Source of the DNA: Methanoculleus bourgensis MS2
GTDB taxonomy: Archaea; Halobacteriota; Methanomicrobia; Methanomicrobiales; Methanoculleaceae
Reading direction: 5' to 3'
NCBI RefSeq assembly: GCF_000304355.2
Contig: NC_018227.2
Span: 1,240,001 to 1,304,000 of the forward strand
DNA: 64,000 bases
Position 1 is the stretch's first letter. Each line of letters starts with the position of its first letter. The notes beneath the pieces were generated by a model. It did no database searches, was not told where the DNA came from, and saw only the letters and a list, made by a program, of their open reading frames with translations. Below, in pieces: positions 7,793 through 32,770 of this stretch. A program made the translations under genes and the position numbers.

Positions 7793-9519
7793 ACCTTGAG
7801 TTCGGGGAACGTAACGGCACCGCTGATGAGTGCGGGGAGGATCTGGGGCAACCGCTCGATCGGCACCCGGATCTGTTCCGTGCTGTCACGGTCCCTGATG
7901 GTGACCGTGTTGTCCTCGAGCGTGTCGTAGTCGACGGTTATGGCATAGGGTGTCCCGATCTCGTCCTGCCTCCGGTAACGCCTGCCGATGGCGCCGGAGT
8001 CATCGTATTGGGCGAGGATACGGCACCGGGTGAGCCTCCCGGTGATCGCCTGTGCGATCTCATCAAGGCTGTCCCGGTTCATCAGCGGGAAGACGGCGAC
8101 CTGGACCGGTGCCACCGCCGCCGGGAGCCGGAGCACCTTTCTCACCTCGCCGTCGACCTCGTCCTCATCGTAGCTGTGCTCCAGCGCAACGTAGATCATC
8201 CGGTCAATGCCATATGAGGGCTCGATGACGTGGGGCATCACTTCTTCGCCGCGGACCTCTTCCTCCTCTTCACGGATCTGGTAGAGGTCGGCAGGGATGA
8301 AGATCTCCTCGCCGTCGACCGTGATCCGCGCGCCGTCCTCGCCGGGGTTTGATGCGGCCAGGGCATCCGCGATAGCCTTTGCCTTACCGCGGAACCGGGG
8401 GCCGAGTACGCCCATATCTGCTACGATCCGCCGTCTTTTGACCAGTTTCGGCTCGTCGTAGGGGATGAAGACCGTCATCGAGTTCCCGGAGTGCCCGGCA
8501 TGCGAGCGCAGGTCGTAGTCGGTGCGGTCGGCAATGCCGACGATCTCCACCCACCCGAAGCGGCCGGAGTAGACCTCGGCGTCCCAGCAGTCGGCCGCAT
8601 AGTGTGCCCGCTCGTCGGGGAGATGCTGGCGGAACCGGAGTCTTGCCGGGTCCACGCCGATGGCGGTCAGGATCTGGTGCGTGAGCGCGATGTAGTAGGC
8701 GACGTACTCGTTTACGATCACTCCCTCGTCCACCGCAGCGCGCATCGTAAACCCGGCTGGCTCCTGATCCTCAAGCTGCCGCTCGATGGTGAGGAGGGGC
8801 ACGGTGTAGTCAGCGTAGCGGTAGAAAGCAGGGTGGTCTTTCTCGTCAGGGTGGACGAAGATCTCGGCCTCTGCCTGGGAGAACTCACGCAACCGGATCA
8901 TGCCCTGGCGGGGGGAGATCTCGTTCCGGTAGGATTTCCCGATCTGGACCGCACCGAAGGGGAGTTTGTCCCGGTAGAAGCGCAGGAGCCGGGAGAAATC
9001 GGTGAAGATACCCTGGGCAGTCTCGGGGCGCAGGTATCCCTTCCGCTGCGATCCCGGCCCGATGGTGGTCTCGAACATCAGGTTGAACGCAAAGACGCCT
9101 GCTTCACCCAGGGGTTCCTCGCAGACGGGGCAGGGCAGTTCATGGAGCGCTGCCTGGAGCGCTTCTGCCGAGAGCGTGCCGGCATTCGCGATGCCGTTAT
9201 CGTCCGCGATGTGATCGGCGCGCAGGTATTCGCCGCAGTGTGGGCACTGCACCATCTTGTCAGCGAACTCTTTCACGTGACCGGATGCGACGAAGATTGC
9301 TTCGACTCCAACGGTGGGGCATTCGATCTCATAGTAGCCTTCCTGAAAGACGTAGAACGACCGCCAGAGGTTTTCGATGTTCCTCTTCATCATCGCTCCG
9401 AGCGGGCCGTAATCGATAAAACCGGCGACAGACCCGTATATCTCGGATGAAGGCCAGACAAAACCACGTCTCCTGGCCACATCCATGACTTTTTCGTAAA
9501 TATCGCTCGTCTCGGCCAT
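7789..9519 (-). CDS. glyS: Glycyl-tRNA synthetase, archaeal/eukaryotic type
   Basis: A 576-residue class II synthetase. The N-terminal FVWPSSEIYGSVAGFIDYGPLG motif, motif 2 region (GKSYRNEISPRQGMIRLREFSQAEAE) and C-terminal anticodon-binding domain are all present. Two CxxC pairs (CPHC, CPVC) in the insertion could bind zinc. The start at MAETSDIYEK (9519) is chosen because family members begin there; an upstream Met at 9573 would add an atypical tail. It is the first gene of the glyS-hef operon. Confidence 0.97.
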   Translation of the reverse strand: MAETSDIYEKVMDVARRRGFVWPSSEIYGSVAGFIDYGPLGAMMKRNIENLWRSFYVFQEGYYEIECPTVGVEAIFVASGHVKEFADKMVQCPHCGEYLRADHIADDNGIANAGTLSAEALQAALHELPCPVCEEPLGEAGVFAFNLMFETTIGPGSQRKGYLRPETAQGIFTDFSRLLRFYRDKLPFGAVQIGKSYRNEISPRQGMIRLREFSQAEAEIFVHPDEKDHPAFYRYADYTVPLLTIERQLEDQEPAGFTMRAAVDEGVIVNEYVAYYIALTHQILTAIGVDPARLRFRQHLPDERAHYAADCWDAEVYSGRFGWVEIVGIADRTDYDLRSHAGHSGNSMTVFIPYDEPKLVKRRRIVADMGVLGPRFRGKAKAIADALAASNPGEDGARITVDGEEIFIPADLYQIREEEEEVRGEEVMPHVIEPSYGIDRMIYVALEHSYDEDEVDGEVRKVLRLPAAVAPVQVAVFPLMNRDSLDEIAQAITGRLTRCRILAQYDDSGAIGRRYRRQDEIGTPYAITVDYDTLEDNTVTIRDRDSTEQIRVPIERLPQILPALISGAVTFPELKV

Positions 9520-9679
9520 AGTCCTGCAGTACACTTGAGCGCCGAGGCTAATAAAGAATGGTTCTCCTCTCACGCGAGATCATAATTCTTCGTAAAATGG
9601 GCTGTGTGAGGAGGCCTTTTTTTCACAGTCAGCGATATTTTGGAAGATACTGTTACATCTTTCAAAATGATCTTTCTAC

Positions 9680-9795
9680 TCAGATGGTTTATATGGAAAG
9701 TTTTAAATGTTATCAGTTGTAATGTAGGGAGCGTTACGCCCCGGTTGGGGATCATCTATATATATAGGAGGCTGTCATGAGTGGCCTCCTAAGCC
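9680..9795 (+). promoter_or_regulatory. Promoter with two TATA boxes and inverted repeats before the HTH gene
   Basis: TTTATATGG (about 9686-9694) and CTATATATATA (about 9756-9766) are both plausible TATA boxes. An 8-bp perfect inverted repeat, TAGGAGGC at 9765-9772 and GCCTCCTA at 9784-9791, overlaps the start region of the second promoter. CCCC-ggtt-GGGG (9739-9750) lies between them. From the upstream promoter these would form leader hairpins; for the downstream one the repeat is placed like an operator. Confidence 0.5.
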
Positions 9796-9828
9796 AGATG
9801 GTGGAATAAAAAACAGAGAGATAGGGAC

Positions 9829-10437
9829 ATGGCAGAAGATACCCGCAAGCAGCAGCTCCTTGAGCTGTTCACGACCATCACGAACAAGAAGACGATCGTT
9901 GAGCCGATGAGGAAGGTTCACGGTACGCTCCGGGACCGCGATGCTGTTGAGCGCGAGATCGCCCTGATAATGCGTGAGATCCTCGATCAGGGCTACTTCA
10001 AGACCAAGCTCGCTCCGCGGCAGCTCGCAAAGCTCGTGGTCGCGTACTATGACGAGAAAAACGATACCGAGATCGCGAGGGCGCTTGGTGATGAGAAACT
10101 GAGTAAGACCGTGGCACGTGCACGGGTCCGCCTCAAACTCTTCAGGGAACTCGATTTCAAGATGCCGTTTGATCGTGAGATGATGACGGAACTTCTTGAT
10201 TCCGGGAAGACCATGAAGGAGATCAGCGAGGAACTGAACGTGAGCCCCTCTACACTTCGTGAGTACCGTCATGTGATCGAACAGCAGGAGGACACGACCC
10301 TGGACCCGTACCTGGAACGGATCCGGGATGTGATGGAAGACCGCGATCTCTCCGAACATATGACGCGGGGCGTCATCAACGACGGCCTGAGTGAGGCCAT
10401 CGATGTCGCTGAAGCGATCGATATGGGGGAGTTCTGA
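9829..10437 (+). CDS. HTH-containing conserved euryarchaeal protein
   Basis: A 202-residue acidic, helical protein with a TMKEISEELNVSPSTLREY segment (residues ~126-145) that reads as a helix-turn-helix. A preceding region (KNDTEIARALGDEKLSKTVARARVRL, ~67-92) looks like a second HTH. It resembles proteins annotated in haloarchaea as conditioned-medium-induced protein 4, but I recall that label only weakly. AGAGAGATAGGG precedes the start. The long structured promoter suggests regulated, perhaps autoregulated, expression. Probable DNA-binding regulator; target unknown. Confidence 0.75.
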   Translation: MAEDTRKQQLLELFTTITNKKTIVEPMRKVHGTLRDRDAVEREIALIMREILDQGYFKTKLAPRQLAKLVVAYYDEKNDTEIARALGDEKLSKTVARARVRLKLFRELDFKMPFDREMMTELLDSGKTMKEISEELNVSPSTLREYRHVIEQQEDTTLDPYLERIRDVMEDRDLSEHMTRGVINDGLSEAIDVAEAIDMGEF

Positions 10438-10462
10438 ACTTCGGGCCCCCCTTTTTCTGCTG
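10438..10462 (+). terminator. T-rich terminator
   Basis: GGGCCCCCCTTTTT follows the stop codon of the HTH gene directly, as expected for an archaeal oligo-T terminator. Confidence 0.5.
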
Positions 10463-10496
10463 AACATTTTTTAATGCGCAGATCAATCTCTTCTCC

Positions 10497-11171
10497 ATGA
10501 GGTTGACCTGGCTTGGCCATGCATGTTTTAGTCTTGAGGGATCGCGGACTGTTCTCATCGACCCCTTCATCCCCGGGGGCTCGCTCCCGGTGGAGCCTGA
10601 TATCGTTGCGGTGACGCACGCCCATGCAGACCACCTGGGCATGACCGTGCAGCTGAAGAAGAAGACGGTCGCCATCAACGAGGTCGCAAAGTACCTGGCA
10701 TCGAAGGGTATCCCTGCCGAGCCCATGAACATCGGCGGCAGCATCACCGTGGATGGGGTCAGATTTACGATGACTCCCGCTCTCCATTCATCGTGGTTGG
10801 AGGAGGAAGGTATGGGCTTTTACGGCGGCACCGCCGCGGGGTTCGTTATCACGATGGACGGCACCACCGTTTATCACGCCGGCGATACGGCACTCTTCTC
10901 TGATATGCAGCTTATCCGGGACCTCTACCGGCCGGATGTGGCGCTCCTCCCTATCGGCGGGCGCTACACGATGGGCCCGGAGGAGGCGATGGTTGCGGCC
11001 CGGTACGTCGGGGCGCAGCTCGTGATCCCGATGCATTACGACACATTCCCTGCCATCGAGCAGGACGTCCGGAGGTTCAAGCAGGCCATCGAGCGGACGA
11101 CACCGATCCGGGTCCGGGTTCTCTCGCCGGGCGAGGCGATCGATATCGGTCCCGAAAGCGCCGGGGAGTGA
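10497..11171 (+). CDS. UPF0173 metal-dependent hydrolase (metallo-beta-lactamase fold)
   Basis: A 224-residue protein that begins MRLTWLGHACF. The zinc ligands are visible: T-H-A-H-A-D-H-L (residues ~38-45), a His in TPALHSSW, and Y-H-A-G-D-T plus IPMHYDTFP near the C-terminus. The family is UPF0173. The natural substrate is not established. A TATA-like TTTTTTAATG lies ~30 bp upstream of the ATG, which suggests a leaderless mRNA. The gene is followed by a run of miniature elements. Confidence 0.93.
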   Translation: MRLTWLGHACFSLEGSRTVLIDPFIPGGSLPVEPDIVAVTHAHADHLGMTVQLKKKTVAINEVAKYLASKGIPAEPMNIGGSITVDGVRFTMTPALHSSWLEEEGMGFYGGTAAGFVITMDGTTVYHAGDTALFSDMQLIRDLYRPDVALLPIGGRYTMGPEEAMVAARYVGAQLVIPMHYDTFPAIEQDVRRFKQAIERTTPIRVRVLSPGEAIDIGPESAGE

Positions 11172-11193
11172 GGGGCATAAGCGCTGACTCTAG

Positions 11194-11407
11194 TACACCG
11201 ATTCCAAATTAGCAGATCATATCTGGCCTTCGTCCCATCCCCCACGGAGCGCTCCCCTCCGTCCCCCCACCCCGCCCCTACCGGGGGCAGTGCCCAGGCG
11301 TATATCCGGTGGAACGCTGTCCTCCGGGATGCAGACCCCCGGATAGTGTGTAAAAAAAGGTTGATGCTTTCCTCCGTTGAGCGTGCCGGTAATTGGGAAT
11401 CGTTGCA
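11194..11407. mobile_element. Miniature inverted-repeat element, family M3
   Basis: The left end reads TACACCGATTCCAAATTAG. The right end, reverse-complemented, begins TGCAACGATTCCCAATTAC. The flanks are CTAG (11190-11193) and CTCG (11408-11411). No coding capacity. The second good copy is at 49,828-50,065, with fragments elsewhere. Confidence 0.75.
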
Positions 11408-16294: not shown

Positions 16295-16345
16295 TGCGGG
16301 GAAAGGGATTCGAACCCTTGAACTCCTGCGAGACTGGACCCTAAA
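16295..16345 (-). pseudogene. tRNA-Leu(UAG) 3' half at the left end of the integrated element (attL)
   Basis: Read on the reverse strand, this holds the last 42 nt of a tRNA-Leu (16,336 down to 16,295): variable arm, T-arm AAGGG-TTCGAAT-CCCTT, acceptor TCCCCGC and discriminator A. It is preceded by the 9-bp core GACCCTAAA (plus strand, 16,337-16,345) from the anticodon loop. Joined to the 5' half at 32,817-32,859 it gives a complete 85-nt tRNA with a perfect anticodon stem CTGGA/TCCAG. Confidence 0.93.
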
Positions 16346-16404
16346 CCTATCACATACACTTGGCGCTGTTTACACCTTTAACCGCGCCGGGAGAACGGTT
16401 GCCA

Positions 16405-17571
16405 ATGAATGTGATAGAGAAACTGAAGAACCTCGATCCGGTCAATAAAACGTATCTCGAAAAGTACATTCGCCACCTCAAGCTCAAGCAGCTGAAGCAG
16501 AAGACCATCGATACGAAGGTCTGGCGGATCTACACCTTCCTCTCCTGGAGCAAGTTCAGCGACGCACAAGAGGCAGGCCCGGAGCGGCTGGAAGACTACT
16601 TCATCGAACGAAGAGCGACCGTCAGCCCCTTCACCCTGCAGGGCGACATCCTCGAACTGAAGCTCTTCTTCCGCTGGCTTGTCCCCGACAGGGAGAAGGA
16701 ACTCTTCCGTAACATCCGGATGAGGCGTCCGCGCAAGCATCTCCCCGTCGACCAGTTGATCACCCGCGAGGACATCGTCCGGCTCGTCGATGTCTGCGAC
16801 AAGCCGCGTGACCGCGCGCTGATCATGCTCATGTGGGACTCTGGCGCCCGGATCGGGGAACTCCTGAGCCTCAACATCGGCCACGTCCAGTTCGACCGCT
16901 ACGGTGCGGTGGTGATCGTGAACGGCAAGACCGGGATGCGGCGCCTCCGGCTGATCAGCTCCGTGCCGGATCTGCAGACCTGGGTCAACACGCACCCGCT
17001 CCGTGCGGACGCAAACGCCCCGCTCTTTGTGACCTCCCGGAGGTATGGGCACGAGCCCCGGCGCATGAGTATCCGGACGGTTGAGAACAAGTTGAAGTAC
17101 GTTGCCCGGAAACTCGGGATGACGAAACCGATTCACCCGCACGCCATCCGCCACGCCCGGCTCACCGATCTGACCCGGAGCAACGGCAAGAAGCAGGGGC
17201 TCTCGGAGATGGAGCTCCGGCTCGTCGCCGGCTGGGAGAAGAACAGCGCGATGCCGGAGGTGTATGTTCACCTGTCCGGCGCGGATGTCGAGCGGAAGTT
17301 GCTGGAGAACGCCGGGCTCGTCGATGACGCGTCCGACCGGATGGATACCGCGCTCGAGCCCCGGCAGTGCCCGCGGTGCAAGGCCCTGAATGCTTATGAC
17401 GCCTTCTACTGTGCGACGTGCTCGATGGCGCTCGTCGAAGAGGCGGCGAGAAAGGTGGACGAGTCGACGGAGGAGGCGAAGAAGAGTGGGGAGTATCTGG
17501 AGTATATGGAGTTGGTTCGACAGTTGAAGAAGGATTTGGGTTTGTCAAAGATTCAACCCTCTCATAGTTGA
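16405..17571 (+). CDS. Tyrosine integrase with C-terminal zinc ribbon
   Basis: A 388-residue XerC/D-like recombinase. An N-terminal SAM-like core-binding domain (residues ~15-105) precedes the catalytic domain. The catalytic set is present: R149 (SGARIGELL), K175 (NGKTG), H246-x-x-R249 (HPHAIRH), W277 (GWEKN) and nucleophile Y287 (YVHLSG). A CxxC...CxxC zinc ribbon (CPRCKALNAYDAFYCATC, ~328-345) follows, as often seen in methanogen integrases. ATG 16,405 is used; the frame is open upstream to 16,360. It sits next to the attL core and should catalyse integration into the tRNA-Leu anticodon loop. The gene itself is not split by integration, unlike SSV-type integrases. Confidence 0.93.
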   Translation: MNVIEKLKNLDPVNKTYLEKYIRHLKLKQLKQKTIDTKVWRIYTFLSWSKFSDAQEAGPERLEDYFIERRATVSPFTLQGDILELKLFFRWLVPDREKELFRNIRMRRPRKHLPVDQLITREDIVRLVDVCDKPRDRALIMLMWDSGARIGELLSLNIGHVQFDRYGAVVIVNGKTGMRRLRLISSVPDLQTWVNTHPLRADANAPLFVTSRRYGHEPRRMSIRTVENKLKYVARKLGMTKPIHPHAIRHARLTDLTRSNGKKQGLSEMELRLVAGWEKNSAMPEVYVHLSGADVERKLLENAGLVDDASDRMDTALEPRQCPRCKALNAYDAFYCATCSMALVEEAARKVDESTEEAKKSGEYLEYMELVRQLKKDLGLSKIQPSHS

Positions 17572-17718
17572 TCCCGATAAATCACTTGCACTGAGCGCGG
17601 TTCTCACTTAAAACCGCTCTTCACCCATCTCTTTTTGTGTGCGGGAACGCTCCCGGGGCCACCTGACCCCGTTCTTTTCAGCACTGATCACCCCGATCCG
17701 CCCGCACAGGAGCAGTCT

Positions 17719-17862
17719 ATGAAAGAGATCACCCAGGAAGTACTCGACCACATCCCGGACCCCATTGCAAAGCTCGTCTGGGAGAAGTGGATCGCCGACG
17801 GTAAAGCCAGATTGATAACGCCACACTACGAGGGAACAAAATGCAAAGCACAGACAGGATAG
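17719..17862 (+). CDS. Small protein of the element (47 aa)
   Basis: It starts at ATG 17,719, seven bases after AGGAG. The product is soluble and helical (ITQEVLDHIPDPIAKLVWEKWIADGKARLI). It overlaps the next reading frame by 22 nt, so it is the first of three tightly packed small genes behind the integrase. No recognised family. Confidence 0.65.
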   Translation: MKEITQEVLDHIPDPIAKLVWEKWIADGKARLITPHYEGTKCKAQTG

Positions 17863-18122
17863 ACGGCAGCCCCCATGATGAAGCGTGCGCCAACATCGAT
17901 TCACACGGGACTGCCAACAGCTCTTCTCCGTCCGAAGGGATAAGACCAGCTACCGACAAGCGACGCGCGGGTATCGTCCCGCTCTACCTGGTCCAGCAGG
18001 TCGTGGCCGCCGAGATCGCTCGATACGGCCGGGCGGTGCGAGAGATCCACGTCGTCCGGACCGGCTGCCACTACTACACCATCACGACCCTGACCGCACG
18101 GGAGGCGGCCGGCCATGACTGA
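17841..18122 (+). CDS. Small hypothetical protein of the element (93 aa)
   Basis: It overlaps the genes on either side (22 nt and 8 nt). The first ~40 residues are low-complexity and polar. The second half is compact, with alternating hydrophobic residues (IVPLYLVQQVVAAEIARYGRAVREIHVVRTGCHYYTITTLTA), suggesting a small alpha/beta domain. No family recognised. The position suggests a regulator or accessory protein of the integrase/plasmid phase, but this is only inference. Confidence 0.6.
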   Translation: MQSTDRIDGSPHDEACANIDSHGTANSSSPSEGIRPATDKRRAGIVPLYLVQQVVAAEIARYGRAVREIHVVRTGCHYYTITTLTAREAAGHD

Positions 18123-18336
18123 GCCGGGGACCCTCTCCCACGGCACCGGCGGGGCGCTCCACATCTCCGTCGACGCCGAGAAGTACCGGATCGAGGCCGA
18201 GGACCTCAAGAACCTGCTCTTCTACGGCAGAGTGATCCCGATCGCGCAGGATCGCTCGCGGACGACCCCGGGCGGGATCCTGGTCAGCGAGGCCTCGCTT
18301 CGTGGCGGCTGTTTACGAAAAGAGTGCCAACACTGA
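18115..18336 (+). CDS. Small hypothetical protein of the element (73 aa)
   Basis: The third small gene. It starts inside the end of the previous one (ATGACTGA context at 18,115). The sequence begins with a beta-rich stretch (GGALHISVDAEKYRIEAEDLKNLLFYGRVIPIA) and ends in a basic, cysteine-containing tail. No family recognised. Confidence 0.55.
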   Translation: MTEPGTLSHGTGGALHISVDAEKYRIEAEDLKNLLFYGRVIPIAQDRSRTTPGGILVSEASLRGGCLRKECQH

Positions 18337-18376: not shown

Positions 18377-18790
18377 TCAATACTCGCCGCCGTAGACCCC
18401 TGTCGCGATCTCATCCTCGATCGTGTCAGTCTCCTTTCTCGCGATCGTCTCCTCCCGCTGCTGCCGCAGTTCCCTGACAAGATCCCGTACGGCATAGACA
18501 TCGATGGCGTTGTATGAAGCCTCATCGTATTCCAGTGCTGCGATCTCCGCGAGCGCCTCCTCAATGCGGTCAAGGTCGCTATACTGGCCGATTGCAATCC
18601 GGAACCGGTCGAGTATCGGCTCTGCAGTGTACCGGAAGTTCCCCCTGATCGAGTGGTCAAGGAGGAGGTCGTTCACGGCATGCCCTCTCTCCGGATCGAC
18701 CACTATCTCGAGGACCGCCGGTGCGATCTCATAGGTATCGATATCGCCCGCCTCGAACCCGGCGATGATGGTTATCTGCACATCTGGCAC
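18377..18790 (-). CDS. Acidic small protein, third gene of the OGG/TPR-CSD operon
   Basis: A 137-residue, strongly acidic protein with no membrane helix. A beta-rich first half (VQITIIAGFEAGDIDTYEI...LEIVVDPERGH) is followed by long helices (LDRIEEALAEIAALEYDEAS...). It begins 18 nt after the TPR-CSD stop and so should be co-transcribed with it. I do not recognise the family. Its conserved company with a nucleic-acid-binding TPR protein and an OGG-fold protein would be the best clue to its role. Confidence 0.7.
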   Translation of the reverse strand: MPDVQITIIAGFEAGDIDTYEIAPAVLEIVVDPERGHAVNDLLLDHSIRGNFRYTAEPILDRFRIAIGQYSDLDRIEEALAEIAALEYDEASYNAIDVYAVRDLVRELRQQREETIARKETDTIEDEIATGVYGGEY

Positions 18791-18808
18791 GCTCCTGTCT
18801 CTTATGCC

Positions 18809-20119
18809 TTATCTCGCTGCAGTATCGTCCATCGGCCGGACGTTCACCGCCTTTGCAGCCCACTCATTCTTCTTCCGGTTAAACGATGGAACAACGTCGA
18901 ATACAACCTGGCTCAGGTCCTCCGGTGCCCAGGTGAGCTCGTTCTTGAACCCGATGTATCCGTCAGCGTCCGGCGGGTTGATGAAGAAGTACTCGCGCTC
19001 CGGATGCCCGAGAAAGATCCTGCCAACTACCCCCTCTGCAAGCGGCTTTTCCCGCTCATGCTGCACCGTCAGGGGACTCTGCTCGGTTTCGCAGCTGCTC
19101 CAGTGGCGGCTGCACCGATAGGTGAGTTCCTCGACAGAATCCTCGATTGAAGAGATGGCGTTCTCATCGAGGCGCTGCTGCAATTCAGGAGGGATGGACC
19201 ACGACATCCGCATCCGCAGGGCTGTGACCAGCGTATAGTGGTCCCGGGCCGCGTCCAGGCGACCGACCTGCTTGAAGATGTCACCCATCTCCATGAAGTA
19301 GCCGACCATGAACTCCGGGCGCTGCCCTGCTTTCACGGCCCGGGCCATCAGTGCCAGCGCCTCTTCCGGGCGGCCGAGCTGGTGGACAACTTTTCCATAC
19401 TCAAAGAGGTCGTAGTAGTCCGGCCGGACGTTCCGGCAGAGCTCGTCAAACGTTTCTGCCGCCTTTTCGTATTCACCGATGCCTGCATACGCTTTGGCGA
19501 GGTCGGATGCAAAGAATTTGTACTGGTTGGGGAACTTCTCGATCGCTTCACGGCAGAGGGGAAGGGCTTCTTGCGCGCGCCCGGTGCCAATGAGCCCCAA
19601 GTTCCGGTAGTGATACCAGCGGGCAAGGTAACTCCAACCTTCTTTTCCATCGGGGAGTTTCATCCCCGCCGGGCTGAGCAGCGAGGGATCGACCCGGGAC
19701 GTCCATGTTGCCAGCAGATTCCAGTCTTTGGAACCCTTTGCCGGTTTCATGATGGCGAAGGCGATATGGCTCACCGCCTGTGGGGGTGGGTTTCTGGAGA
19801 GGGCCTTCTCTCCGCAGGCGTGGAGCACCGGGACAGATGCCCCGTTATCTGCCATCTCTTCGACATAGCCGACATATGTCCATGCGACCTCCAGGTTTAC
19901 CCAGTTGTGATCGGGGTAACGCGCGGCGATATCGTCGGCGAAGGTCATCGCCTCGCTGATGGGGCGCAGTTTCCTGAGACAGTGCAGCAGGCCTGCAGCA
20001 GTATATCCATTGTGATGCTGGCTGTCCCAGAGTTCACGATAGATCTCCAGGGCATCCTCGTACCTTCCGTTCTTTCTCAGTTTGTTTGCTTCCTGTGAGC
20101 GTTCTTCAGGGGTATCCAT
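18809..20119 (-). CDS. TPR protein with C-terminal cold-shock-like domain
   Basis: A 436-residue protein. Residues ~1-320 are TPR-like helical repeats (EANKLRKNGRYEDALEIYRELW; AYAGIGEYEKAAETFDELC; VVHQLGRPEEALALMARAV; GDIFKQVGRLDAARDHYTLV). The last ~75 residues (GVVGRIFLGHPEREYFFINPP...GYIGFKNELTW...VVFDVVPSFNRKKNEWAAKAVNV) have the strand pattern of a cold-shock/OB domain with F-F and K-x-W-A-x-x-V. It probably binds single-stranded nucleic acid and protein partners. It starts 1 nt after the stop of the OGG-fold gene. Confidence 0.8.
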   Translation of the reverse strand: MDTPEERSQEANKLRKNGRYEDALEIYRELWDSQHHNGYTAAGLLHCLRKLRPISEAMTFADDIAARYPDHNWVNLEVAWTYVGYVEEMADNGASVPVLHACGEKALSRNPPPQAVSHIAFAIMKPAKGSKDWNLLATWTSRVDPSLLSPAGMKLPDGKEGWSYLARWYHYRNLGLIGTGRAQEALPLCREAIEKFPNQYKFFASDLAKAYAGIGEYEKAAETFDELCRNVRPDYYDLFEYGKVVHQLGRPEEALALMARAVKAGQRPEFMVGYFMEMGDIFKQVGRLDAARDHYTLVTALRMRMSWSIPPELQQRLDENAISSIEDSVEELTYRCSRHWSSCETEQSPLTVQHEREKPLAEGVVGRIFLGHPEREYFFINPPDADGYIGFKNELTWAPEDLSQVVFDVVPSFNRKKNEWAAKAVNVRPMDDTAAR

Positions 20120-20120
20120 G

Positions 20121-20849
20121 TCAATCCCTCCTTATGTTCTGGATTTTCTCCGAGGCATAATTAAAGAATGCCATCTCCACATCGGCGTTCAGCCAGATCC
20201 CGCGCTCGCGAAGACCCGCATTGGTGAGCGCCTCCGGATGCGGGCATGGTTGGCCTGCTGCATTGAGCTCTGCTGCTGCGTAGGTCAGGATGGCGGTCCA
20301 TGTGCCGTATTCTTCCGGCCAGCCCTGTTGGCCGGAGAGGATCGCCCAGCGCCCATCGACGGGTGTTGCGGTCAGGTCGAGGAGGTGCAGGTGGGCGGTG
20401 TCCCCCGCACCGAAGACCCGGACAATCCGGGTGTCGATCGCTCCAAAAAGTTCCGGCGCTGCGAACCGCAGGAGCTTGCTGGTATAAGTGGGGCCAAACC
20501 CCCGGATCTGGCCGCCAAGTACACGGATAGCGTTCTCCGGGCTCTCCCGCGCCCATCGGGCAACCTTTCCATCCTCAAAGAGGGCGATCCGGATCGGAGC
20601 AGGCGCCCGGATCCGCTCGATGTTCGGCAACCCGCCCCACCGCGCGATCGCTTTCAGGTGTTCCTCAGAGAGCGTCCCGGCTCTTGCAGCGTCGCCAACC
20701 TCACGCTCAAGCCGGCAGATGTCAGGGAATCCGTTCTGCCAGAGATCCCGCTTCCACGCATACGTGCGGTAGAGATCCGGGAAGTCGCAGGTCTCGATCA
20801 GGTCGCCGATACTGTCTTTCTTCGATGTGTTGAGATTCTGGTTGTTCAT
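20121..20849 (-). CDS. OGG-fold/HhH-GPD-like protein (putative DNA glycosylase)
   Basis: A 242-residue protein. The block IRGFGPTYTSKLLRFAAPELFGAIDTRIVRVFG (residues ~125-157, quoted here in parts: GFGPTYTSKLL, then AIDTRIVRVF) has the layout of the helix-hairpin-helix plus catalytic-Asp segment of HhH-GPD glycosylases (compare VDTHV in EndoIII). It is closest in style to the stand-alone OGG-fold family found in bacterial defence loci. The start at 20,849 follows GAGGAA by 8 nt. It heads a three-gene operon and is divergent from the CARF regulator. The activity is inferred, not shown. Confidence 0.6.
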   Translation of the reverse strand: MNNQNLNTSKKDSIGDLIETCDFPDLYRTYAWKRDLWQNGFPDICRLEREVGDAARAGTLSEEHLKAIARWGGLPNIERIRAPAPIRIALFEDGKVARWARESPENAIRVLGGQIRGFGPTYTSKLLRFAAPELFGAIDTRIVRVFGAGDTAHLHLLDLTATPVDGRWAILSGQQGWPEEYGTWTAILTYAAAELNAAGQPCPHPEALTNAGLRERGIWLNADVEMAFFNYASEKIQNIRRD

Positions 20850-20932
20850 TTCTGGTTCCTCGTGTGAGCAGGGCTCCCCCGTCGCCCTGTCCCATTGTTG
20901 TATACGCACAGGGAAACAATTAAAAAATTCAC
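20850..20932. promoter_or_regulatory. Divergent promoter between the OGG operon and the CARF regulator
   Basis: The 83-bp region contains GTTGTATACG (~20,894) and AATTAAAAAATT (~20,918-20,929). The rightward gene has no Shine-Dalgarno and may be leaderless. The layout suits control of the operon by the CARF-HTH protein. Confidence 0.4.
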
Positions 20933-21811
20933 GTGACTATTGTGAATATTGTGAAAACTTCTGATCCGATCCGGCCTGCCAGGGCCGATGGCCTGAACGA
21001 GCGGGTTCACCTGATCCCGCTCGGCCACGAGATCGACCGGGCCGTAAAGCCGTTTAATACATACCGGGCCGAGCGTGCGTACGTCATCGTGGTCCCGGAC
21101 AACGCCGACCTGGATGAGCAGATGCTGGAGAAGCAGCGCCACTATACGAAGAGGGTCTGTGAGGGGCTGCTGGCGGCAGGTGTCCGCCCTGAGGTCGCCT
21201 ACTGCAATATGTTTGACATCCTTGATGTGCTCCGGGTCGTCTCCTCCCTGATTGTGAGAGAGAAGCGGCAGGGGAACGATGTCCTCATCAACATGTCGGC
21301 CTGCGGCAGGATGACGTCGGTGGCCGTCACCATGGCGGCGATGGTGCATGGGGTTAGGGCGTACTATGTGCATGCGGACCGCTATGCAACGGGTGACGAT
21401 GCCGCACTCGAGGCGGACCACGGTCTGAGTATCGTGGAGACCGGGCAGGTCGAACCGCTGTATAACTTCTCCATCATGATGCCGGACGCCGAGTGCCAGC
21501 TGCTGCTGTGCGAGCTCTACCGGCGGGGGGAGGGGATGACCAGCGAGGACCTCTTCGGCTTTTTCCACAAGCAAGGATTTGAAGGATATGACGAATTGCC
21601 GCCCGAAAAGAGAAACAAGTCTGGCGAATACAGCTCGGGCTCGAAGAACCGGGAACTTCTCAACAGGACGAACCGAAAATACCTGTACAAACTGGAGGCT
21701 GCAGGCTACATCACGCGCATCTGGAGCGGCAGGCGCTTTTCTGTTCACATCACCGATGCCGGGAGGTACATTGCCTGTGTGAGCGGTCTGCTTGAGGGTG
21801 ACGCCACATAA
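20933..21811 (+). CDS. CARF-like (DUF6293/HFX_2341-type) HTH regulator
   Basis: A 292-residue protein. Residues ~24-150 form a Rossmann-like domain beginning RVHLIPLGHEIDRAV and carrying VLINMSACGRMTSVAVTMAA (residues ~117-136), the position of the CARF ligand loop. Residues ~170-285 are a winged-helix-like region (CELYRRGEGMTSEDLFGFF...NRTNRKYLYKLEAAGYITRIWSGRRFSVHIT). Family members are thought to sense nucleotide ligands and control transcription. Divergent from the OGG/TPR-CSD operon. GTG 20,933 is the first start; later GTGs are possible. Confidence 0.82.
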   Translation: MTIVNIVKTSDPIRPARADGLNERVHLIPLGHEIDRAVKPFNTYRAERAYVIVVPDNADLDEQMLEKQRHYTKRVCEGLLAAGVRPEVAYCNMFDILDVLRVVSSLIVREKRQGNDVLINMSACGRMTSVAVTMAAMVHGVRAYYVHADRYATGDDAALEADHGLSIVETGQVEPLYNFSIMMPDAECQLLLCELYRRGEGMTSEDLFGFFHKQGFEGYDELPPEKRNKSGEYSSGSKNRELLNRTNRKYLYKLEAAGYITRIWSGRRFSVHITDAGRYIACVSGLLEGDAT

Positions 21812-21894: not shown

Positions 21895-23212
21895 CAGTAC
21901 TTCGCTAATTTTCGAACCAGCATATTCTCTGCCGAACCCGGAAACCCGCACAAAAACGAAAGATTTATATCGTTTGCAGGCGCCCCCTCATGCCTTTTGC
22001 CAAAAGCAAGAAGACGACCTGCAGAAAGAGTAACGACCTCAAGCCGAAAGAATGTTGTGCTCACGCCATTGCGGCGCTGGACCAGCACCTCACCATCCCG
22101 ATCCAGGGTCGGCTCACCCAGACCGACCTGTTTCAGGCTCTGGTCGGCATGGCCGCGATGCAACAATCGATTCACTCGATCACCGGGTTTTTGGAGCATG
22201 TACCCTGTGAGACGTCATTTCGCTATCATCTCAACAAACTGGCTATGGATGATCTGGAGCAGAAGAGCACTGCTATCCTCACCCACCTCGTGCACCACGT
22301 CCTGAAACCCGGGAACGCGTATCAGTTTGCGATTGACTACACCAACGATCCGTACTACGGGAAGACTTCCGACGAGAACGAATCATATATCCTCCGAAGC
22401 AAACGCAAGCAATCGACGAACGAATTCTACTCCTACATCACCCTCTACGTGACCACCAGAGACCGGCAGGTGACGTTGGCCGTGTATCCGGTGCGGCAGG
22501 GGATCGCAAAGGTTGGGTACATCGCCCGGTGCCTCGACCGGATTGCCGAACTCGGGCTCAAGGTCGAGGTCCTCTGCCTGGACCGGGAGTTCTATACCCG
22601 GAAGGTCTTCGGGTTTCTGACCCAGGTGCAGGTACCGTTCATCGTTCCCGTCAAGAAGCAGAGCAACCGCATGAAAGCACTGCTCCAGGGGACGCAGTCC
22701 CGGTATGCCGAGTACCGGATGAGAGGAAAACCATCACTTCCCCTGACGATTGCCATTGCCGTGAAGTATGCGAAGGGGAGACGAGGAAAATACGGCGCTG
22801 AGAATCTGGGCTACGTTGTCGGCGGTATTGCCTGGCATCCGCTCCGGGTGCACCGGATCTACCGATCACGGTTCTCGATCGAGGCATCCTACCGGATGCG
22901 CAACCAGGTGAAACCCAGGACGAGCACAAGAAACCCCGTGATTCGGTATCTCTATGCAATCATCTCGTTTCTGCTGAAAAACGTCTGGATCGCTCTCTTA
23001 TGGATACATTTCTCGCCGGTGAAGCAGGGACCGCGAACGATTGAAATGCGCGCGTTTCGATTCGATGCTTTTCGACTCATAATCTGGGAAGCGATCCGGG
23101 CATCGATGGGGATGGTGAAAGGAATTACGGTGTTACGGCAACGGGTTTAGAGAAAGGATGGTAGAACAAGGTCAAACAGAAGGAGAGGTGAGGGAGATTT
23201 AGCGAAGTACTG
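21895..23212 (+). mobile_element. Intact ISH3-type insertion sequence
   Basis: Terminal inverted repeats CAGTACTTCGCTAA (21,895-21,908) and its complement (23,199-23,212) enclose one transposase gene. A 5-bp target duplication AATAG is present on both sides (21,890-21,894 and 23,213-23,217). The copy is complete and therefore probably recent. It lies between the CARF regulator and the DUF4268 gene. Confidence 0.92.
21990..23150 (+). CDS. ISH3-family transposase (DDE)
   Basis: A 386-residue transposase. DDE residues are recognisable: Asp in FAIDYTNDPYYGK (~113), Asp in EVLCLDREFYT (~195) and Glu in RSRFSIEASYRMRNQ (~296). The C-terminal hydrophobic segment is typical of ISH3/IS4-like enzymes. 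TTTATAT at ~21,962-21,968 lies about 25 bp before the ATG, so the mRNA is probably leaderless. No frameshift is visible. Confidence 0.92.
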   Translation: MPFAKSKKTTCRKSNDLKPKECCAHAIAALDQHLTIPIQGRLTQTDLFQALVGMAAMQQSIHSITGFLEHVPCETSFRYHLNKLAMDDLEQKSTAILTHLVHHVLKPGNAYQFAIDYTNDPYYGKTSDENESYILRSKRKQSTNEFYSYITLYVTTRDRQVTLAVYPVRQGIAKVGYIARCLDRIAELGLKVEVLCLDREFYTRKVFGFLTQVQVPFIVPVKKQSNRMKALLQGTQSRYAEYRMRGKPSLPLTIAIAVKYAKGRRGKYGAENLGYVVGGIAWHPLRVHRIYRSRFSIEASYRMRNQVKPRTSTRNPVIRYLYAIISFLLKNVWIALLWIHFSPVKQGPRTIEMRAFRFDAFRLIIWEAIRASMGMVKGITVLRQRV

Positions 23213-23313: not shown

Positions 23314-24285
23314 ATGGTTAGAAATCATTTTGGGAGACTAGAAGAGGTTGATCTCCGCGCTGGTTGGTTAGATGAGGCGCGGGATTTTACGCCCTGGCTT
23401 GCCCAGACTGAAAACCTTGAGATCTTGGGTGATGCTCTTGGGATGGAACTGGAACCCGTCAGTACTGAGCAGGGGGTGGGTCCTTACAAAGCTGACATTC
23501 TTGCAAGAGATCCGGCCACCAATACATACGTGCTCATTGAAAACCAGCTTGAGAAGACAGATCACTCGCACCTTGGCCAGATAATTACGTATAGTGCTGG
23601 ACTTGAGGCGAAGACCATCGTCTGGATCGCCAGAAGGTTTACCGATGAGCATCGTGCTGCACTCGATTGGCTCAATCAAATCTCAGAAGAGTCGCTCAAT
23701 TTTTTTGGCATTGAGGTTGAATTATGGAGAATTGGAGATTCCTCACCCGCACCTCGATTCAATGTCGTATCCAAACCCAATGAATGGACGAAGTCGATTC
23801 ATGCATCAAGACAACCTTCGGAATTGACGGATTCGCAAGGAATCCAGTTAGAGTATTGGAGTGGCTTTAACGAGTATCTCGAAAGCGTCTGCTCAAAGCT
23901 GAAACCCCGGAAACCGTATCCGCAGAATTGGATAGCATATGGGATTGGAAAAAGCGGCTTTACACTGGCCGCAAAAATTCATCAGCGTGAAAAATGGATT
24001 GATGTCGAGATTTGGGTTGGAGGTCAGCACAAAAATGAATATTTCCAGCAAATAAAGGAAAACTTTGAGCAGGTTGCGGCAGAGAAACTGAATCCCCATA
24101 TTGAGTGGATCTATCGGCCAGAGCGGATTGATCACCTCATCCGGTTGGTTCGACCGATGACGGATCCTGCAGACACTTCTGAATGGCACGAACAATTCGA
24201 GTGGATAGAAAATAATCTTAAGATGTTTCGTGAGTTCTTCTCCCCGATAATTAAAAGTCTGAACGTAAATGAAGGTGGAGACTAA
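23314..24285 (+). CDS. DUF4268 domain protein with PD-(D/E)xK-like N-terminus
   Basis: A 323-residue protein. The N-terminal half has the layout of a restriction-endonuclease-like core (ADILARDPATNTYVLIENQLEKTDHSHLGQ, residues ~63-92: D ... E-x-Q instead of the classical E-x-K). The C-terminal half matches DUF4268 (ARRFTDEHRAALDWLN; later GFTLAAKIHQREKWIDVEIWV). Such proteins occur in defence islands and near restriction genes. The base composition is clearly more AT-rich than its neighbours, pointing to separate acquisition. Function inferred only. Confidence 0.8.
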   Translation: MVRNHFGRLEEVDLRAGWLDEARDFTPWLAQTENLEILGDALGMELEPVSTEQGVGPYKADILARDPATNTYVLIENQLEKTDHSHLGQIITYSAGLEAKTIVWIARRFTDEHRAALDWLNQISEESLNFFGIEVELWRIGDSSPAPRFNVVSKPNEWTKSIHASRQPSELTDSQGIQLEYWSGFNEYLESVCSKLKPRKPYPQNWIAYGIGKSGFTLAAKIHQREKWIDVEIWVGGQHKNEYFQQIKENFEQVAAEKLNPHIEWIYRPERIDHLIRLVRPMTDPADTSEWHEQFEWIENNLKMFREFFSPIIKSLNVNEGGD

Positions 24286-27942: not shown

Positions 27943-28271
27943 TTAGGGTGAGAGGGTTTACCGGTTTGTTATGGTCGCGGCGGAGTAGCAGATGTTCTGT
28001 GCAAACAGTGCGTTGAACGGCCGAATCCTCGACTATTGGCTCAGAGTGTTTACTTCTATGCACAAGTATAGGCTGATGTATACGGTAGGAGCAGATGAGT
28101 GGCGCTACACCTGGACAGTGATGATGTCCTCAAAGAACACAGCATGAAATTACTGAAAGCCACCCTGACGAGGCAAAAACGCGGTATAACATCTCAGACT
28201 CAGCGGTTACCTGAAATACTGTTTCGCAACTCTTTTCTATGGCAATAACGTTAACGATTTACTGTTGCCTG
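27943..28271. other. Intergenic gap, nothing convincing
   Basis: This is where composition changes from GC-rich to AT-rich. One 29-codon open frame (28,058-28,147) is too short and unsupported to call. GTATACGGTA and TTCTATGG-type AT stretches could hold the promoter of the next gene. Confidence 0.4.
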
Positions 28272-30206
28272 ATGGTCGAAACTGTCGATAGGATTCAGAA
28301 GCGTAATGAGGCGCTGATCTTTCGAGTCGGTGAACAGGCTTTTTTTGTGAAACTTCACGATATCAGAGAAATCCTCGGCGGAACGAGGCTCGATGCAAGG
28401 GTATTCGACAAGACCAATCAGGATGTTGGCATTATCCATCCGTACAATCGGTCGTTCCGACTAAAAGTAGGTAAACACGAATACGAAGCAGCCAGAAAAG
28501 ACGTCAAAGAAGTATTCGAGTCCCGGTATCGGCCAGATTCCCTGATCCTGATCTTGCTTGGCGACTCCTTCCATAAGATTGACTGTCCTGGGTCTGCCGA
28601 TTACCGGAGAGAGCATTCAATTCTCGAACAGGGTTTGGAAACCGATACCAGATATTCCCTGGTGCATTCACGACAGTACGTGTTTCACCGTTTGAAAAAC
28701 GGTGGCCTGACATGGCAGAACACCGATCTGAAAGATTCCTACTTCAATCAGGCTCTCACTCCGGGCGAGGACTTCGGCGGTGATGCCACGGGCCCTGGTT
28801 TGTCATATATGCCAGCGATGGAGCGATATGACGGGGACTTTTATGCGAGCCTTGGCGAAGAGGGGAAGCAGCAACTTCTCTCATCGGGACACCACATTCT
28901 CATACTCTCCGGCCTGTATGGTCTTGTCTGTCCTCTGGAACCGGTGCAGATGTACGACTGTATCCTTGATGAGCACAACCCGAATTTCGACACCTGGAGA
29001 CAGGATAATTGCCTGACACGAGTTCTGGCCGATTATGTCCGAAAACATGGTATTCAGCGGATATTTGAGTTCACGTCAATCCATGACTACCGTAACGTCA
29101 TCGACTGGGGATCTCTGAAACTCGCGACAAATAGTGTAGAAGTATTCCACTGCTTTTATATGCATGCAGACGGGCCGAAAGGGCTCCGGACACTGGGAAA
29201 ATTCGTCAGGAATGTCTTTCTGAATCTCCCGGAGGAGCAGTTGCTCCTGATTGAGCCTGGTTCCGAGTGTGAGCAGGTGATCTTCAGTGACCAGAGCATC
29301 AGGACTGATAAGGCAGAGAAACTCCCTATTCCAAGAAACTGGGGTGCGTTGAACTTAGAGACCATACCGGACGAGGATGTCAGGAGACAACTGGTTGATA
29401 CTGAAGAACAGTTGGTAACTCTCTACCGTTCGCCAAAACCCAGTTCAGATGCGGGTTCATCGATCTGGCTTGGTTATGCCAAAGGGCTTGAGAAAATGCT
29501 CCATAACGAGGTCGGGCGGCGGCTACGTGCGTATGTTTTTTCAAGATGTGCCAACGATGCTTGGAGGCTGGATGGATGCGCGTTTTGGGATCTACCTAAG
29601 CAACTGAGGGATCTTCTGCCTCTCAAAGAAGAAGAGATCAAGCATATCAACCTCGGTGGGTGGGCGTATTTACGCGAGAACTTGCAGGCAAGTGCGTGTA
29701 ACCCTCTCGTTTCCGACGTTCTCACCGACCTCCTTGCCTTTATCGATCGGGAATTTGGTATTGACTTCGATCGGATTCAGATGACGTGTACATACTTCTC
29801 AAACCACCGGGGGAGGGCGACGCATACAGGGACATACACCCTCAAGGATATCATCGAAGAACGGAAGACAATCCTCGCACATCTTAACGCGGTTATTGAT
29901 ATCCTCTACGAGACACACTGGAAGGATCGCAATCGCCTTCTCAAAGATGCACAACGTGCTGACAGATACGAACGTCTTGACGCCATCCTGGCCCTGGGTA
30001 AAGTACGTGATAGTGAAGTGGTGGATCAGCTCGTTTACGCACTTTCGGATCCGGATTTCCTGGTTCGTGGCTTTGCTGCTGTCTCGCTCGGTCTGGTGGG
30101 AGACAAACGGGCGTGTAGGCCTCTCATGGAGAGACACTTTGCAGAGCATAACTGGGGTGTCAAAATCCGGATTGTATATGCACGTGAGCAACTGAAGTGC
30201 GGATAA
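28272..30206 (+). CDS. Multidomain protein: YaaA/DUF6884-like domain plus HEAT repeats
   Basis: A 644-residue protein (ATG 28,239 would add 11 residues). Residues ~180-320 contain SSGHHILILSGLYGLVCPLEPVQMYDCIL, which matches the ILSALYGLxxPxxPIxxY signature of YaaA/DUF6884 proteins; this superfamily binds DNA and includes nucleotide-processing members. The last ~80 residues are HEAT-like (LDAILALGKVRDSEVVDQLVYALSDPDFLVRGFAAVSLG). The N-terminal ~170 residues are not recognised. It is AT-rich relative to the chromosome. Likely defence cargo by context; the role is inferred. Confidence 0.6.
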   Translation: MVETVDRIQKRNEALIFRVGEQAFFVKLHDIREILGGTRLDARVFDKTNQDVGIIHPYNRSFRLKVGKHEYEAARKDVKEVFESRYRPDSLILILLGDSFHKIDCPGSADYRREHSILEQGLETDTRYSLVHSRQYVFHRLKNGGLTWQNTDLKDSYFNQALTPGEDFGGDATGPGLSYMPAMERYDGDFYASLGEEGKQQLLSSGHHILILSGLYGLVCPLEPVQMYDCILDEHNPNFDTWRQDNCLTRVLADYVRKHGIQRIFEFTSIHDYRNVIDWGSLKLATNSVEVFHCFYMHADGPKGLRTLGKFVRNVFLNLPEEQLLLIEPGSECEQVIFSDQSIRTDKAEKLPIPRNWGALNLETIPDEDVRRQLVDTEEQLVTLYRSPKPSSDAGSSIWLGYAKGLEKMLHNEVGRRLRAYVFSRCANDAWRLDGCAFWDLPKQLRDLLPLKEEEIKHINLGGWAYLRENLQASACNPLVSDVLTDLLAFIDREFGIDFDRIQMTCTYFSNHRGRATHTGTYTLKDIIEERKTILAHLNAVIDILYETHWKDRNRLLKDAQRADRYERLDAILALGKVRDSEVVDQLVYALSDPDFLVRGFAAVSLGLVGDKRACRPLMERHFAEHNWGVKIRIVYAREQLKCG

Positions 30207-32685: not shown

Positions 32686-32770
32686 TGCGAGGGAAGGGAT
32701 TCGAACCCTTGAACTCCTTCGAGAACGGACCCTAAATCCGTCGCCTTTGACCTGGCTCGGCAACCCTCGC
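32686..32770 (-). tRNA. tRNA-Leu(UAG), complete, carried inside the element
   Basis: An 85-nt tRNA on the reverse strand. Acceptor GCGAGGG pairs with CCCTCGC, the D-arm is followed by GACGGA-type anticodon stem ACGGA/TCCGT with loop TTTAGGG (anticodon UAG), then a long variable arm, and T-arm AAGGG-TTCGAAT-CCCTT; the discriminator is A. CCA is not encoded. It differs from the disrupted host tRNA at several stem positions but keeps the same anticodon loop, including a third GACCCTAAA core (32,728-32,736). Confidence 0.97.

Follow-up and report, generated by a model that had tools for sequence, protein, structure and literature searches.

The stretch of DNA analysed here (the window: 64,000 nucleotides, positions 1,240,001 to 1,304,000 of contig NC_018227.2) comes from Methanoculleus bourgensis MS2, whose single-contig genome of 2.79 Mb is G000 in our numbering, L-numbers denoting the compared loci; it holds a group of genes that we consider a candidate defence-like cassette under the control of a CARF regulator. 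Tightly spaced on the minus strand lie the genes for an OGG-like protein of putative helix-hairpin-helix (HhH)-GPD type (20121-20849, 242 residues), for a TPR protein with a C-terminal cold-shock-like (OB) domain (CSD; 18809-20119) and for a small acidic accessory protein (18377-18790). Divergent from them, on the plus strand, is the gene for a DUF6293 (HFX_2341-like) CARF-winged-helix-turn-helix (wHTH) regulator (20933-21811), and a promoter region shared by the two sides lies between (20850-20932). All four reading frames have the positions and strands given in the initial annotation, as does the 83-bp gap it described, from the ATG of OGG (20849) to the GTG of CARF (20933); translation of the CARF gene may start at GTG 20951 instead. 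Three tandem 9-bp units (GTGACTATT GTGAATATT GTGAAAACT; plus strand, 20933-20959) overlap the annotated CARF start and form a probable CARF operator.

OGG-like genes are patchily distributed, with 21 of 150 genomes of the order carrying them and a search of 393 genomes of the phylum adding a few more. At 18 OGG loci, from several lineages and at 35-56% identity, a CARF gene is adjacent and divergent, and both paralogous sets of the own genome are among these. Since positive genomes each have one or a few CARF genes of this kind, adjacency by chance would, by our own estimate, be of the order of 0.001 per locus. Two arrangements recur. Form A (CARF / OGG / TPR-CSD) is found at nine loci, eight of Methanoculleus type plus L061 from another family, where the OGG, TPR and CARF proteins are 49%, 44% and 46% identical to those of the window; one form-A locus, L050, has a broken OGG frame. 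Form B (CARF / OB-like protein of about 120 residues / OGG) occupies eight loci including the own-genome paralogue L004. Outside the order, L078 shows CARF / OGG / an 89-residue protein / DinG-like helicase, while L055 carries OB and OGG with no CARF gene nearby. Gene order kept in distant genomes, together with purifying selection on OGG, TPR and CARF (ratios of non-synonymous to synonymous substitution rates, dN/dS, of about 0.15-0.4), indicates that the cassette is more than a chance grouping. The small acidic gene is confined to the window, L043 and L044, which are closely related loci (dN/dS 0.35 against L044). Hence, where the initial annotation had named co-occurrence of all four families in other archaea as a check, the small acidic protein drops out and the four-gene unit is rejected; what recurs is CARF plus OGG plus either TPR-CSD or the OB-like protein.

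The CARF gene product joins an N-terminal CARF-type domain (PF19810, 119.5 bits, cut-off 30) to a C-terminal wHTH (PF22665, 72.4 bits, cut-off 27), and with both domains above cut-off its assignment to the DUF6293 CARF-HTH type, as annotated at the outset, is secure; it also matches the PADLOC CARF3 model PDLC01861 at 400.8 bits. The DUF6293 CARF family is present in 61 of 120 sampled genomes of the phylum. Tandem 9-bp units are found upstream of CARF genes: a lag of 9 gave the best self-match among lags 7-12 in 25 of 27 CARF upstream regions, L103 (tied) and L060 (second) being the exceptions, and shuffling returned lag-9 p values of 0.002 to 0.06 in most CARF loci with weaker ones in L064 and L109, the 27 loci being partly related and the tests not independent. 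The array consensus is about GTGAAYATT at OGG-type loci and about GTTAGCATT at other CARF loci. Searched across the whole own genome with up to 3 mismatches, a 23-bp array pattern occurs in two places, both of them OGG-associated CARF promoters, against no occurrence of the reversed-pattern control and an expected count in the window of 0.02. Arrays are also seen at several PLG-type CARF relatives of other families, and HFX_2341-like PVGFD-type relatives are mostly without one. An array dedicated to these genes makes control by the CARF protein likely and, since it overlaps the annotated CARF start, the sequence suggests that through this array the protein is likely to repress its own gene and to control the divergent promoter. 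At L055, GTGAATATT-type units persist upstream of the OB gene (about 10740-10850) with no CARF gene near, which suggests either that control is exerted in trans or that a CARF gene has been lost.

Type III CRISPR as a source of the CARF ligand is rejected, because Cas10 (PF22335) was not found in 22 of 23 genomes with cassettes or CARF relatives, G000 included, under positive controls; it is present only in G145. These CARF genes therefore lack the genomic Cas10 that marks ancillary CARF proteins of type III CRISPR. The clade has another association. At L100 (9815-12437), a DUF6293 CARF-wHTH gene of the same clade, 39% identical to the window CARF and preceded by four 9-bp units, is divergent from an operon of the cyclic-oligonucleotide-based antiphage signalling system (CBASS), which encodes a CD-NTase (PDLC00788, 389 bits) and a Cap15-type effector with two transmembrane segments (two-TM; PF18153). 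The OGG cassettes share with this locus the kind of regulator and the kind of array but contain neither cyclase nor Cap effector, the pair that defines CBASS. Further same-clade CARF genes are divergent from a D..ExK protein of about 98 residues plus a two-TM protein of about 73 residues (L101-L105, around 9300-11350; L105 lies in the own genome at G000:C1:2047838-2048677), from a two-TM protein alone (L106, L107) or from OB plus other proteins (L086, L087), and defence neighbours elsewhere include BrxL (L099, L085), NERD-UvrD (L087) and Mrr (L053). Because a close CARF relative sits likewise beside known antiviral (CBASS) genes, the OGG cassette is probably a module of antiviral function that has not been described before. 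No named PADLOC system matched it as a whole, the matches being to single genes (TPR-CSD, CARF3, PDC-S11), and no description of it was found in the literature searched, coverage of which was partial; its CARF and TPR-CSD families are already known singly to PADLOC.

In the OGG-like protein, the candidate catalytic residue D139 is the only invariant column across 23 diverse sequences (19-94% identity). When it is aligned by hhalign, at a weak score, with Nth-type proteins of related genomes, the helix-hairpin-helix falls into register, D139 coincides with the catalytic Asp and the place of the catalytic Lys is taken by T121; a nearby lysine, K125, is variable, being replaced by N in L049 and by R in L081 and absent from L086 and L112-L114. 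A Lys-dependent bifunctional glycosylase/lyase is thus rejected. Where an OGG active site with Asp and Lys had been proposed, the Asp proves invariant and the Lys is off the catalytic position and unconserved, so that of the pair that characterises bifunctional glycosylases of the OGG1/Nth type only the Asp is there. Helix-hairpin-helix register and Asp appear to be common to the OGG-like protein and to OGG1, Nth, MutY and PF21790, whereas the Lys of OGG1 and Nth is not; PF21790 is matched at E<=1 by 15 of 19 homologues (best 2.7e-5). MutY, AlkA and other monofunctional HhH enzymes have a catalytic Asp without Lys. Judged by its invariant Asp and the lack of Lys at the catalytic place, our protein resembles such an enzyme, or a base-binding protein, and not OGG1 itself. 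By alignment, a 235-residue protein of L086 is a distant OGG-like member. A third own-genome copy (L042, G000:C1:1204244-1204924) is an orphan in which the catalytic-type Asp has become Asn and upstream of which lies a decayed OB remnant.

As to the partners, the TPR protein matches PADLOC model PDLC01170 ('TPR repeats containing protein fused to cold shock-like domain (OB-fold)') over residues 1-428 at E 1e-18, which bears out the original call of a TPR protein ending in a cold-shock-like domain; AlphaFold2 models the TPR part confidently and the CSD part at low confidence. TPR-CSD adjoins OGG in nine of the ten genomes that carry it. The partner of about 120 residues, for which no match over threshold was obtained in Pfam, PHROG or PADLOC, is 'OB-like' by our own reading of its sequence. 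It occurs in type I restriction operons too, with HsdS-like and HsdM genes (L089:9700-12302, L090:1454-4045, L092:7369-9965, L093:7784-10371). Yet another partner of OB and OGG is a protein of about 650 residues that starts HNERCxxCK and has a conserved VEFDESQHF stretch (L055:7303-9318, L060:10626-12638, L097:7857-9830, L087:7433-9358), three of the four copies having a middle part that looks CN-hydrolase-like by eye. One might argue that the OGG-like protein binds nucleic acid without catalysing anything and that the action of the cassette is due to the OB/CSD/TPR partner, by scaffolding or RNA binding. While this would fit a catalytic place without Lys, a nearby Lys that varies and OB relatives in restriction-modification operons that have no OGG, an Asp kept invariant over 19-94% identity argues for a conserved pocket, and we regard inertness as very unlikely.

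The cassette is carried by an integrative element of about 16.4 kb. At its left end is an att-like 51-bp copy of the tRNA-Leu 3' end (16295-16345), a direct repeat of 32686-32736, and at its right end the intact tRNA-Leu itself (32686-32770, minus strand; ARAGORN). Next to the left end follow a XerA-like tyrosine recombinase or integrase (16360-17571, plus strand; PF00589, 62.9 bits), 80% identical to one in L045, and an element gene shortened to 73 residues from the 113 seen in L045 (18115-18336, plus strand). L045 11675-12397 aligns with window 17572-18291, where homology stops and the shortened gene is cut. L045 is a related element that holds a form-B cassette next to caspase-like and ThsB-TIR genes; we rejected the idea that forms A and B use the same element slot, as the L045 cassette sits between the integrase and a 93-residue gene and that of the window after the truncated one. 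An ISH3-family insertion (21895-23212, plus strand; transpos_ISH3, 269.5 bits) lies beside the CARF gene and is absent from near-identical L043, which is continuous across the site, with about 5 bp shared at the junction. Beyond it is PDC-S11, a candidate defence protein (23314-24285, plus strand; PADLOC PDC-S11, 387 bits) that neighbours the CARF gene also in L043, L044, L046 and L050. Integrase, tRNA-Leu repeat and PDC-S11 agree with the mobile element and defence-like neighbours that the initial annotation had seen here. An Orc1/Cdc6-like ATPase is also aboard, and in other strains the cassette lies directly at the same tRNA-Leu. That the cassette serves the element by replication, maintenance (toxin-antitoxin-like) or counter-defence, and not host defence, would accord with its place beside an integrase and such an ATPase and with the two cassette subtypes in related elements. 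We find this quite unlikely, given that in L046-L050 the cassette is at tRNA-Leu but the integrase side seen in the window element is lacking, that no relatives of OGG, OB or TPR-CSD were found in the viral contigs scanned with their alignments or matched in PHROGs, and that the regulator clade is linked to CBASS.

Also inside the element, at 28239-30206, is a YaaA-like plus HEAT protein, with a match to the PADLOC TPR model PDLC02907; a DUF6884 protein related to it follows OB in L086. Peroxide-stress-type proteins of this YaaA/DUF6884 kind, in the window element and in the related cassette of L086, might point to a repair and stress module on mobile elements, directed at oxidative or alkylation base damage, in which the OGG-like protein would be a monofunctional repair glycosylase (its conserved Asp without Lys being that of MutY and AlkA) and the CARF protein would sense nucleotides from damaged nucleic acid. 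However, the genomes already have several ordinary HhH-GPD proteins, the cassette is patchy, mobile, multi-copy and flanked by defence neighbours, and a CARF of the same clade stands at CBASS. To our minds, a repair role is therefore unlikely.

Among known regulators, HFX_2341 (PMC11434293) and Csa3 (PMC8699464) have a CARF domain followed by a winged HTH, as does the window CARF. HFX_2341 is described as global, whereas the window CARF is predicted to regulate locally, its array of 9-bp direct repeats lying next to a single operon. Csa3a binds cyclic tetra-adenylate (cA4) and its reported motif is an 18-bp palindrome, unlike the 9-bp direct repeats found here in genomes without Cas10. BrxR-family WYL regulators (PMC9122601) likewise combine a ligand domain with an HTH beside many different defence cassettes, albeit with WYL and inverted repeats where the archaeal genes described here have CARF and tandem direct repeats. 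As for the effector, the anti-phage DNA glycosylases Brig1 and Brig3 (PMC13160076) would share with the OGG-like protein the role proposed for it, to recognise or excise an unusual base of invading DNA; the Brig3 fold is AAG-like, whereas the OGG-like protein has a sequence of HhH-GPD type and a putative activity. By analogy, the cassette would work like BrxR-type regulated defence cassettes (PMC9122601), with an effector step that may resemble that of Brig-type glycosylases (PMC13160076).

In such a scheme, the CARF protein would bind the 9-bp array as a cooperative multimer, repress itself and hold the OGG operon off or poised. Going by what is known of the families, a nucleotide signal that arises from infection and is not made by Cas10 would bind the CARF domain and change expression, the OGG-like protein would flip out and recognise an unusual base of the invading DNA, perhaps excising it by means of its single Asp, and the OB/CSD partner would hold single-stranded DNA or RNA, with protection of the host as the outcome. 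Of the ligand-controlled DNA or RNA surveillance system originally envisaged, a conserved operon with a ligand-type regulator, matched as a system by none of the models scanned, stands; surveillance itself is what we infer.

That the locus represents a mobile, Cas10-independent, CARF-regulated cassette of defence-like function has, as we read the sequences, about an even chance. Several observations weigh against it. HFX_2341, the characterised relative, regulates globally and hardly affects CRISPR interference (PMC11434293), the link of the CARF clade to CBASS is a single locus (L100), and CARF is missing from the surroundings of several distant OGG genes (L053, L054, L057-L059, L079-L082). 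The OGG-like protein itself scores 19.5-19.8 bits against PF21790 and so stays below the cut-off of 27, its hhalign score against Nth-type proteins is weak (probability 4.9%, P 0.008) despite hairpin and Asp in register, and its AlphaFold2 model, built from six near-identical sequences with no deep alignment, has a predicted local distance difference test score (pLDDT) of 35; no credible relative in the PDB was found by sequence for its profile, nor for those of CARF and OB. Going further, one may tentatively envisage an archaeal family of defence cassettes with exchangeable effectors, in which one CARF-wHTH clade would act via a 9-bp tandem operator upon a non-type-III nucleotide signal and an HhH-type base reader would be a new antiviral sensor or effector. 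The exchangeable effectors would then comprise the OGG-like protein with TPR-CSD or OB, OB with the nuclease-like/nitrilase-like fusion of about 650 residues, the D..ExK plus two-TM pair, and CBASS. We hold this broader proposal to be possible, if doubtful.

In any case, a poorly understood yet widespread archaeal CARF family is now tied to concrete operons and a candidate operator in genomes without Cas10. Two questions can thereby be put to a direct test: what nucleotide is sensed by these CARF proteins, and whether an OGG-like base reader may serve archaea against viruses.

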